Positions 26,159 to 27,878 of a stretch of 64,000 nt of DNA are shown here, one piece after another. The DNA comes from Halomonas sp. (GTDB lineage Bacteria > Pseudomonadota > Gammaproteobacteria > Pseudomonadales > Halomonadaceae). Position 1 is the first letter of the stretch, and the number at the start of each line of letters is the position of its first letter. The notes under the pieces were generated by a model. It worked only from the letters and a program-made list of their open reading frames with translations, was not told the DNA's origin and did not search any database. The translations under genes were made by a program, and so were the position numbers. The stretch spans positions 62,001 to 126,000 of the forward strand of contig NZ_JAKDUR010000001.1 of assembly GCF_030457605.1 (NCBI RefSeq). The letters run 5' to 3'.

Positions 26159-26284
26159 ATGGCCCACGACGAAAACTATCACGACAGCTCCGGCTTTTTG
26201 TCCATCCTGATGGGGCTGATTGTGCTGGTGAGCATGAGCTGCCTGCCGGCTACCATCGGCTGGATTCAGGCGTTTACCGGCTAG
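26159..26284 (+). CDS. Small membrane peptide, 41 aa, unknown
   Basis: ATG with GGGAGG six bases upstream, 118 bases after fre. The peptide has a polar N-terminus (MAHDENYHDSSG) and one hydrophobic segment (about 13-37) with two closely placed residues, Cys and Pro, in SMSCLPATIGW. I do not recognise a family. The excellent ribosome-binding site and the clean membrane-helix pattern are the evidence that it is real. It lies just before the leader of the DAHP synthase gene. Confidence 0.6.
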   Translation: MAHDENYHDSSGFLSILMGLIVLVSMSCLPATIGWIQAFTG

Positions 26285-26293
26285 CGGACTGTC

Positions 26294-26323
26294 TTGCCAG
26301 GGGAGCATTAATCAGGCTACTCT
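26294..26323 (+). promoter_or_regulatory. Candidate promoter for the DAHP synthase leader
   Basis: TTGCCA (26294-26299), 18-base spacer, TACTCT (26318-26323), placed about 50 bases upstream of the first leader-peptide ATG. The match is moderate. I saw no clear TyrR box. Confidence 0.35.
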
Positions 26324-26372
26324 GGCGTCAGATGACTTACTAACACGGCAACCCGACCCACAGGCAGAACGC

Positions 26373-26486
26373 ATGAATACCGTCGATTCCACTTACAGGG
26401 TATTTCTTTCACCGGTGCAAAGCACCGTGTCTGCCTGCGGTTATGGTTACTGGTTTAGCCAGGGGGTGGCCGTGGCCGACGCATGA
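26373..26486 (+). CDS. Aromatic leader peptide 1 (37 aa), attenuator of DAHP synthase
   Basis: A 37-codon ORF that ends 36 bases before a strong intrinsic terminator. Codons 24-28 read Tyr-Gly-Tyr-Trp-Phe (26442-26456), all three aromatic amino acids within five codons, and further Tyr and Phe lie at codons 8 and 11. This is the hallmark of a ribosome-stalling leader peptide that senses charged aromatic tRNAs. The Shine-Dalgarno is weak (CAGGCAG). The downstream gene makes the first committed intermediate of aromatic amino acids, which fits. Inferred from position and codon content, not from homology. Confidence 0.7.
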   Translation: MNTVDSTYRVFLSPVQSTVSACGYGYWFSQGVAVADA

Positions 26487-26522
26487 GTCGCGCCAACGGG
26501 CATCCCCCAACGGGTTGCCTGC

Positions 26523-26565
26523 CGCGAAAACCCCGGTGGGTATACCCCAGCCGGGGTTTTTTGCG
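26523..26565 (+). terminator. Attenuator terminator upstream of DAHP synthase
   Basis: Perfect 10-bp stem AAAACCCCGG (26527-26536) with CCGGGGTTTT (26551-26560); the loop itself contains TGGG/CCCA pairing. The T-run continues to 26562, and outer CGC/GCG can extend the stem. Upstream, G5 (26462-26466) and C5 (26504-26508) and two CCAACGGG copies (26493-26500, 26507-26514) offer alternative pairings. Confidence 0.88.
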
Positions 26566-26633
26566 TTTATACCTCGGTCCGGAAAAAAACCTGAATGATC
26601 CACAACAGCGATTTATGACACAGGAGCTGCACC

Positions 26634-26801
26634 ATGAGTTACCGCGCACTGGCCAACATCGAATCTCCCGTTTTGTACAGCTATCCGGCGTACGACTACG
26701 GGTGGCGATTTAGCCCCGCGCGGCCGGCAGCAGCAGCCACCTCCGGTCGTGTGCATACGGGTGGCGAGAGCCCACGATGTCCCTTGCGTACGGAGAGCTA
26801 A
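26634..26801 (+). CDS. Tyr-rich small ORF 2 (55 aa) coupled to DAHP synthase
   Basis: ATG preceded by AGGAG at seven bases. The peptide contains five Tyr, a Trp and a Phe between residues 15 and 26 (YSYPAYDYGWRF), then an Ala/Ser/Arg-rich tail. It stops at TAA 26799-26801, only three bases before the synthase ATG (26805). The synthase's likely Shine-Dalgarno (GGAGAG, 26792-26797) lies inside this ORF, so translation of the two should be coupled. It lies beyond the terminator, so it could give a second, translational layer of aromatic control. No family recognised. Confidence 0.6.
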   Translation: MSYRALANIESPVLYSYPAYDYGWRFSPARPAAAATSGRVHTGGESPRCPLRTES

Positions 26802-26804
26802 CCC

Positions 26805-27878
26805 ATGAATGCGACTGTTTCTGCCCTTGAATCTGCCACGACGGCAGCTGCCCCTTCGTTGACCACGCCGGCCGTAACGCACGCGTTACCCACGCCCGGC
26901 GCGCTGCACGCCGAGTACCCGGTAAATCGTGCGCTGCACGCGCAAATCAGCGCCCAACGTCAGGCGATAAAACGTATTTTGTCAGGCGAGGACTCGCGCC
27001 TGCTGGTAGTGGTGGGGCCGTGCTCAGTGCACGATCCTCGTGCGGCCCTTGAATACGCCGAGCGCCTCGCCACGCTTGCCGACGACGTCGCCGGCCAGAT
27101 TCTGCCGGTCATGCGCGTGTACGTGGAGAAGCCGCGCACCACGGTGGGCTGGAAAGGACTTGCCTACGACCCGGACCTTGACGGTAGGGGTGATATCGCC
27201 CGAGGGCTTGCGCTTTCCCGGCAGCTGATGCGCGACGTGGCCGAATGCGGCCTGCCGATTGCCACCGAGCTGTTGCAGCCCATGCTCGCGCCGTATCTGG
27301 ATGACCTGCTCAGCTGGGTAGCGATTGGTGCGCGGACGACCGAATCTCAGCTGCATCGGGAGCTGGCAAGCGATCTGGGGGCTGCGGTGGGCTTCAAGAA
27401 CGCCACCAACGGTGGCGTGCAGGTAGCGGTTGACGCCATGGCGGCCGCTGCGCACCCGCACCAGCGCTTTGCCATGGATGCCGACGGGCGGCCGGTCATG
27501 CAGCAAACACAGGGCAATCCGCATACGCACCTTGTACTGCGCGGCGGCAGCGGCGAGCCCAACTATGCCGCAGAACACGTGCGCGTCGCGGCGACGGCGC
27601 TTGCACACGCCGGACAAAACCCGCGGCTGATGGTGGACTGCAGCCACGCCAATGCGCGCAAGGATCACCGCCGCCAGAGCGAAGTGATGCTTGACGTGCT
27701 TGCCCAGCGCGAGGTGGGTAATCTCAATCTGGCGGCGCTGATGCTCGAAAGCCACCTGCATGAAGGCAAGCAGTCGCTTGGTGGAACGCTGCGCCACGGC
27801 GTGTCCGTGACCGATGCCTGTATCAACTGGGACACCACCGAGCGCCTGCTGAAAACCGCCGCGGAACGGTTGGCCTGA
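26805..27878 (+). CDS. 3-deoxy-7-phosphoheptulonate (DAHP) synthase, class I
   Basis: 357 aa. Condenses phosphoenolpyruvate and erythrose 4-phosphate, the first step of the shikimate pathway. Conserved motifs: VVGPCSVHDPRAALEYA, EKPRTTVGWKG, IGARTTESQ and DCSHANARKDH (metal and substrate ligands). AroF/G/H type; which amino acid inhibits it cannot be told from the sequence by eye, so I give no symbol. It has an Ala/Thr-rich N-terminal lead of about 30 residues. Preceded by a double leader with a terminator, so transcription attenuation by aromatic tRNA charging is likely. Confidence 0.95.
   Translation: MNATVSALESATTAAAPSLTTPAVTHALPTPGALHAEYPVNRALHAQISAQRQAIKRILSGEDSRLLVVVGPCSVHDPRAALEYAERLATLADDVAGQILPVMRVYVEKPRTTVGWKGLAYDPDLDGRGDIARGLALSRQLMRDVAECGLPIATELLQPMLAPYLDDLLSWVAIGARTTESQLHRELASDLGAAVGFKNATNGGVQVAVDAMAAAAHPHQRFAMDADGRPVMQQTQGNPHTHLVLRGGSGEPNYAAEHVRVAATALAHAGQNPRLMVDCSHANARKDHRRQSEVMLDVLAQREVGNLNLAALMLESHLHEGKQSLGGTLRHGVSVTDACINWDTTERLLKTAAERLA

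Follow-up and report, generated by a model that had tools for sequence, protein, structure and literature searches.

Tandem aromatic-rich leader frames upstream of DAHP synthase genes from Halomonas to Pseudomonas, the second with a probable RNA pseudoknot

How the entry enzyme of the shikimate pathway might be controlled by two aromatic-rich leader frames placed one behind the other is the question raised by a DAHP synthase locus of Halomonas sp. Leader-peptide transcription attenuators of the trpL and pheL type govern amino acid operons. In the window, i.e., the whole stretch of 64,000 nucleotides that was analyzed, two short frames with an intrinsic terminator between them precede the synthase gene, and an earlier note on this DNA had proposed that they exert two-stage control, by attenuation and then by translation.

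RESULTS AND DISCUSSION

Organization of the locus

On the + strand, leader ORF 1 (26373-26486) is followed by the terminator (26527-26562), leader ORF 2 (26634-26801) and the DAHP synthase gene (26805-27878). The features of this layout are as follows.

26373..26486, + strand: leader ORF 1, 37 aa, MNTVDSTYRVFLSPVQSTVSACGYGYWFSQGVAVADA and stop; recognized by its sequence, a conserved motif and an excess of synonymous changes
26527..26562, + strand: intrinsic terminator of leader 1; long G+C-rich stem and T tract
26622..26626, + strand: Shine-Dalgarno (SD) sequence AGGAG of leader ORF 2; from the sequence, with an SD-like motif also in related loci
26634..26801, + strand: leader ORF 2, 55 aa, beginning MSYRALANIESPVLYSYPAYDYGWRFSPARP and ending ES before the stop; Tyr-rich, with WRF at codons 24-26
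26792..26797, + strand: SD sequence GGAGAG of DAHP synthase, within the final codons of leader 2; from the sequence
26805..27878, + strand: AroFGH-type DAHP synthase, 357 aa; matches to TIGR00034 and NF009395

The synthase scored 433.9 bits against TIGR00034 (cut-off, 173.2) and 485.6 bits against NF009395 (cut-off, 343). A second DAHP synthase copy, 48% identical, is present elsewhere in the genome of the window, and neither leader 1 nor leader 2 was found upstream of it. In leader 1, the putative control codons specify Tyr24-Gly-Tyr-Trp-Phe28 (26442-26456), and the ribosome-binding site is weak (AGG only). Leader ORF 2 stops three bases upstream of the synthase ATG at 26805. The two frames are present as the earlier note had described them, namely, a first ORF with Tyr-Gly-Tyr-Trp-Phe at codons 24 to 28 before an intrinsic terminator, and past that terminator a second ORF, rich in Tyr, Trp and Phe, with its own AGGAG and a stop three bases before the synthase. 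The terminator had been called perfect, which holds for the basal ten pairs and fails for the 14-pair stem, as the latter carries one mismatch.

When the region 26301-26804 was shuffled 3000 times with dinucleotides preserved, one or more aromatic-rich ORFs (ATG start, at least 20 aa, at least 4 F/Y/W in 8 residues) appeared in 4.1% of the shuffles, and two appeared in 0.03%, i.e., in one shuffle. Directly upstream of leader 1 lies a further ORF of 41 aa (26159-26284, + strand), which is preceded by GGAGG and looks hydrophobic by eye (MAHDENYHDSSGFLSILMGLIVLVSMSCLPATIGWIQAFTG). It had no family match above cut-off in NCBIfam or Pfam, and it may be kept in a few related loci, where fragments in other frames were seen.

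Conservation of both leaders

Upstream DNA was compared for 110 orthologues, made up of the window's own locus, a further 29 from 201 genomes of its family (taken, on the strength of the named relatives, to be Halomonadaceae), and 80 named records from Halomonas, Vreelandella, Chromohalobacter, Salinicola, Pseudomonas, Stutzerimonas, Halopseudomonas and others. These loci are best matches, some species are duplicated across both sets, and the sample of genomes contained none named P. aeruginosa. The leader 1 motif (YGYWFS, GYWFS and variants) was found upstream of the synthase in all 110 loci, with YFM in place of YWF in two of them. Leader 2, recognized as a Tyr-rich frame leading to WRF, was found in 106 of the 110 loci, from Halomonas to Pseudomonas, including the two Pseudomonas putida strains examined (L081 and L082). 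It was not found in four Salinicola loci (L045, L046, L049 and L053), all of which have leader 1. These Salinicola loci represent a natural variant that would make a useful comparison.

The aromatic share is 63% over the nine residues ending the leader 1 motif (110 loci) and 43% over the 12 residues that lead up to and include WRF of leader 2, compared with 3.6% in the synthases. Selection on the amino acid sequence was assessed from single-base codon differences between similar loci in the 12 codons preceding each motif. Synonymous changes accounted for 232 of 584 in leader 1 (24% expected) and for 460 of 910 (51%) in leader 2 (22% expected), the locus pairs not being independent. Both leaders thus look like translated frames under amino acid selection. 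The conservation of both frames settles, beyond the odds given by the shuffles, that the ORFs are real. Lack of conservation of the aromatic codons and reading frames in relatives had been named by the earlier note as grounds for dropping its reading; both leaders carry Tyr, Trp and Phe codons, their codons and frames are conserved in relatives, and the reading stands on this point.

Leader 1, its terminator and the P15 family

An intrinsic terminator follows leader 1 in 107 of the 110 loci, and the base after the leader 1 motif, the first of the next codon, is A in 109. A strand that could compete with the terminator was also identified.

26512..26519, + strand: candidate antiterminator strand GGGTTGCC; predicted partner of the terminator's apical portion, a bulge being needed in the window

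Across the 107 loci with a terminator, pairing of the strand GGGUUGCC with the upper terminator is possible in many cases, with a mean of 8.5 pairs compared with 6.6 in shuffles, and on average 22% of shuffles match the helix count of the real loci. The bulge-free helix of the window was no better than in shuffles, several other loci were likewise weak, and duplex energies differed little or not at all from those of swapped loci. A mutually exclusive antiterminator of leader 1 is predicted but only partly shown. The two leaders of the window also have TGG..TTTAGC in common (26451-26459 in leader 1, 26703-26714 in leader 2); leader 2 may have arisen by duplication of leader 1, or the two may share an RNA signal.

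The end of leader 1 and its terminator resemble a catalogued RNA family.

26441..26557, + strand: stretch homologous to Rfam RF00627 (P15), comprising the end of leader 1 and the terminator; Rfam model match

The window matched RF00627 over the full model length (positions 1-119) with 22.8 bits and an E value of 0.026, below the gathering score of 70. Among 13 related loci, the gathering cut-off was passed by seven, i.e., six Pseudomonas-type loci and L110, and the six below it are relatives of the window. The matches coincide with leader 1 and its terminator upstream of orthologous DAHP synthase genes. When 369 genomes were searched with the P15 model, six matches were obtained at an E value of 0.001, one of them above cut-off. 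Both leaders accompany two of the six (L112 and L116), and no synthase was present in the stretch fetched around the match in L115 and L117. In L113 and L114, which belong to another family, a P15-like leader 1 lies upstream of a DAHP synthase gene and a WRF ORF was not found, so leader 1 may be the wider-spread part of the arrangement. P15 is catalogued as a Pseudomonas sRNA gene (Rfam RF00627), and one paper voices the suspicion that it is a riboswitch. On the sequence comparisons above, P15 reads better as the terminated transcript of an aromatic leader-peptide attenuator.

The invariant core of leader 2

Leader 2 starts with ATG in all 106 loci that have it, and its Trp codon is preceded by 11 to 25 codons. 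Tyr occurs before this Trp in 106 of 106 loci, with two or more Tyr codons in 105. The frame then reaches a stretch that hardly varies.

26703..26712, + strand: invariant core TGGCGATTTA, the Trp-Arg-Phe codons and the next A; fixed across loci

In the core, Trp is encoded by TGG (106 of 106 loci), Arg by CGA (105 of 106) and Phe by TTT (106 of 106), and the following base is A in all 106, even though the codon that begins with this A encodes Ser, Thr or Asn, depending on the locus. The synthase genes of these loci use both codons sparingly, with CGA accounting for 4% of Arg codons and TTT for 12.6% of Phe codons. The core of leader 2, UGGCGAUUUA, is thus fixed at the nucleotide level as well as at the amino acid level, and it uses rare codons. 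Aromatic sensing does not account for the conservation of CGA or of the A that follows TTT.

ORF 2 had no NCBIfam or Pfam match, and a search of its region against Rfam gave only chance-level matches, on the opposite strand. Near the end of leader 2, CGATGTC (26775-26781) recurs in relatives of the window, with CGAACAC at that place in Pseudomonas types; this is another CGA codon.

A probable pseudoknot in the tail of leader 2

Gly-Gly codons lie at one fixed distance from WRF in 83 of the 106 leader 2 loci (74 distinct sequences). These 74 sequences and two look-alikes (L024 and L035) were aligned for covariation analysis; the resulting 76 sequences are gap-free over 72 columns, partly because they were selected for that spacing. 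Two helices emerged, with their strands in the order S1-S2-S1'-S2'.

26720..26727, + strand: 5' strand of pseudoknot stem S1 (helix 1, alignment columns 24-31)
26736..26741, + strand: 5' strand of pseudoknot stem S2 (helix 2, alignment columns 40-45)
26743..26750, + strand: 3' strand of pseudoknot stem S1 (helix 1, alignment columns 47-54)
26760..26765, + strand: 3' strand of pseudoknot stem S2 (helix 2, alignment columns 64-69)

Pairing was found in 96.2% of 1064 cells, and both partners varied in seven of the 14 pairs. The pairing fraction, the number of both-side changes and the covariation score were each matched by none of 500 shuffles, and five of 500 matched the number of pair types. 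When the strands were slid by one to three columns, only 24 to 50% of the cells paired, with six pairs changed on both sides at the +3 slide. The pair at columns 27-51 forms in just 1 of 31 Pseudomonas sequences. In L051, an S1 G-C pair is replaced by A-U silently, while in L024 an S2 C-G pair is replaced by U-A at the cost of changing Thr to Ile and Gly to Asp. The covarying crossing helices and this costly swap argue that the leader 2 tail is kept as RNA, and the tail probably encodes an H-type pseudoknot, with two alternative hairpins fitting the same covariation. The pseudoknot overlaps the leader 2 ORF and begins 8 nt past the Phe codon, which, by the geometry of frameshift sites, we take to be roughly the point at which it would confront a ribosome that is decoding Trp-Arg-Phe.

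Genomes were searched with a covariance model built on S1. Within the window's family, the model matched 141 of the 201 genomes sampled, spread over 14 of 24 genera, and with the strict filters used the pseudoknot was not seen in the other 60. Matches were obtained in 12 of 293 genomes of the order, eight from the window's family and four from one genus of another family, the latter with P. fluorescens-type loci. Among 340 genomes sampled across the class and searched under strict filters, only the window's own genome gave a match. All 12 of the matching loci that were opened lie upstream of DAHP synthase genes. A second copy was not found in the genome of the window (about 80% complete), and plasmids gave no match.

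The knot is present in P. fluorescens/putida-type loci. It was not seen in a Pseudomonas-type group comprising P. citronellolis, Stutzerimonas, Halopseudomonas and kin, in which WRF is kept and to which most of the 23 leader 2 loci outside the Gly-Gly set belong. Judging from this group and the genomes in which no knot was detected, leader 2 can exist without the pseudoknot. A hairpin after TTTA in knot-less loci looked plausible by eye and was not significant (mean z, -0.40; 18 sequences); one of these sequences, L048, may carry the knot with a different loop.

What follows leader 2

Under the criteria applied, a second intrinsic terminator was found in none of 104 loci, and none lies on the + strand of the window between 26563 and 26805. 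The second stage is therefore not ordinary attenuation and most likely works through translation or stability of the message. The two-stage control proposed in the earlier note is accordingly borne out as to two conserved aromatic leaders with a terminator after the first and a strong SD sequence belonging to the second, but its second stage is not intrinsic termination. Its further description of the second leader as translationally coupled does not hold as a general rule. In 43 of 104 loci, including the window, the stop of leader 2 falls -4 to +7 nt from the start of the synthase gene; in the other 61, among them the Pseudomonas-type loci and some relatives of the window such as Chromohalobacter, the distance is 25 to 50 nt. 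Where the stop is -4 to +7 nt off, a ribosome ending leader 2 would cover the SD sequence of the gene. As this overlap is absent from 61 of 104 loci, such occlusion cannot be the shared mechanism, and the part common to the loci is the Tyr-rich frame with its WRF core.

In Pseudomonas-type loci (e.g., L063 and L104), a strong conserved hairpin lies between the leader 2 stop and the SD sequence, and it would bring the stop next to the gene's SD. The pseudoknot had no consistent effect on predicted SD accessibility, which was higher in 17 and lower in 5 of 44 loci of the window's family, and higher in 1 and lower in 1 of 30 in Pseudomonas. A switch in which the CACCTCC strand of the knot would act as a conserved anti-SD sequence was considered and set aside, being unsupported in Pseudomonas and weak in the window's family.

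A two-step model and its alternatives

The recurrence of the tandem from Halomonas to Pseudomonas suggests two successive checks on aromatic amino acid supply. We see about an even chance that the tandem leader controls the shikimate-pathway entry enzyme in two steps, attenuation and then a pause at WRF. In the first step, a ribosome would translate leader 1 behind RNA polymerase. With charged Tyr, Trp and Phe tRNAs at hand, leader 1 would be completed, the terminator would form, and a short RNA, the counterpart of P15, would be left; if Tyr, Trp or Phe tRNA were scarce, the ribosome would stall at YGYWF and transcription would read through. On the readthrough mRNA, a second ribosome would then meet the Tyr codons of leader 2, followed by Trp-Arg(CGA)-Phe(TTT), with the pseudoknot standing at the ribosome's mRNA entry while these three codons are decoded. 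The pause at WRF, longer when aromatic tRNAs are scarce, would set the output of DAHP synthase per mRNA. In the window, where the leader 2 stop and the SD sequence of the gene overlap, the simplest form of this step would be an on/off switch by SD covering: a ribosome that reaches the end of leader 2 would mask the SD (off), and one held at WRF would leave it free (on). We infer the stalling, the occlusion step, the role of the pseudoknot and the direction of regulation, the last from the biosynthetic role of the gene. Rather more tentatively, leader 2 may represent a new kind of translational sensor, in which a Tyr-rich leader with a UGG-CGA-UUU-A core would be parked by an H-type pseudoknot, and a hold proportional to aromatic tRNA would set translation or decay of the downstream mRNA, in series with the P15-producing attenuator.

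Some of the same observations would fit a simpler arrangement, in which leader 1 alone regulates by attenuation and leader 2 merely supplies ribosomes by translational coupling and senses nothing. Stop and start overlap in 43 of 104 loci, the Pseudomonas hairpin would join the leader 2 stop and the SD sequence, and the four Salinicola loci manage without leader 2. However, coupling requires neither a fixed Trp-Arg-Phe, nor two or more Tyr codons (105 of 106 loci), nor a pseudoknot, and we hold this explanation to be unlikely. The fixation of nucleotides beyond what the amino acids demand, including the A after the Phe codon, would be expected if leader 2 were an mRNA-stability switch, with UGGCGA/UUUA as an RNase E-type site that a paused ribosome shields and a passing ribosome exposes. 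GAUUU presumably agrees with the RNase E consensus, and a covarying RNA structure follows the core in the 76 aligned sequences. We would nevertheless give this little chance: the cleavage is putative, the Tyr codons and the upstream synonymous excess are left unexplained, and the post-UUUA hairpin in knot-less loci lacks significance.

The two crossing helices, which covary and keep a constant distance to the core, could also point to a ligand- or protein-binding, riboswitch-like RNA made up of the pseudoknot and the invariant core, to which the ORF would be secondary. This is improbable, given that the core persists without the pseudoknot in one Pseudomonas-type group, that the leader 2 ORF is under amino acid selection, that the knot does not consistently hide the SD sequence of the gene, and that no terminator follows. 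The spacing of 8 nt between the Phe codon and the pseudoknot, which we take to be that of frameshift sites, raises the idea of a programmed frameshift at UUUA before the pseudoknot, yielding a leader 2-synthase fusion or an alternative peptide. A fusion as the rule was rejected, because across the 106 loci the gene may lie in any of the three frames with respect to leader 2 (same frame, 37; +1, 27; -1, 42), and a standard slippery heptamer was not seen by eye. Programmed frameshifting thus has only the faintest likelihood in our estimation.

Comparison with known systems

Like attenuators of the trpL and pheL type, the two-step arrangement has cognate codons (in leader 1) just before an intrinsic terminator that precedes a biosynthetic gene. 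Unlike them, it has codons for three amino acids, serves a branch-point entry enzyme and continues with a second leader. P15 is the same type of element in the same place as leader 1 and its terminator but is filed as an sRNA gene.

Two-stage logic is also known from the Bacillus subtilis rtpA (anti-TRAP) operon, described in the passages seen as having a T-box followed by the RtpLP leader peptide, complete translation of which prevents translation of the gene (PMC2311275, PMC4027176). Here, too, transcription and then translation would respond to one amino acid supply. According to the same passages, rtpA differs in that its first stage is a T-box and a single amino acid (Trp) is sensed; they mention no pseudoknot. 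The proximity of stop and SD sequence known from RtpLP is present in the window and in 43 of 104 loci in all, and absent from 61. In Salmonella mgtCBR, mgtM and mgtP are two short ORFs in series in the leader mRNA, which, in the passages compared, answer to ATP and proline and both act on transcription (PMC3641672). In the synthase loci, both leaders are aromatic, and unlike in the mgtCBR tandem, the second has no intrinsic terminator of its own (0 of 104 loci).

The LEU element of actinobacterial leuA is similar in that a leader peptide ORF is overlapped by a pseudoknot. The passages seen describe control codons that pair with the gene's SD sequence at the base of the knot; such pairing was sought and not found here (mean longest helix, 5.18, compared with 5.31 in shuffled sequences; 104 loci). 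Those passages also describe no upstream terminator stage, unlike leader 1 here. The uORFC-13-1 motif before Acholeplasma aroF, as presented in the part of the source compared, consists of a uORF with one or more Phe codons and a terminator; it is a single uORF from another phylum, with no tandem leader or WRF-pseudoknot module (PMC8632094). In the passages compared, none of these systems joins an aromatic attenuator to a second aromatic leader with a knot.

Comparative work on proteobacterial attenuators exists, and an earlier publication may have pointed out leader 1. A description of the tandem leader or the pseudoknot was not found in the parts of the open-access full-text literature seen. 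In a word search of the main text of a 2010 survey of premature terminators, DAHP, aroF and aroG were absent (PMC2965389).

Implications

Three features go beyond what the earlier note had described, namely, the pseudoknot, the fixation of UGGCGAUUUA at the nucleotide level, and the kinship of leader 1 with P15. Through this kinship, P15 gains a testable identity as the attenuator leader of DAHP synthase. Furthermore, a second leader with a pseudoknot, matched in 141 of the 201 sampled genomes of the family, is now described. Pseudomonas putida is used as a host for making aromatics; as both leaders are present in strains L081 and L082, they may limit aromatic flux there. More generally, the tandem leaders offer a natural system in which to study why two serial sensing steps persist at a branch-point enzyme.
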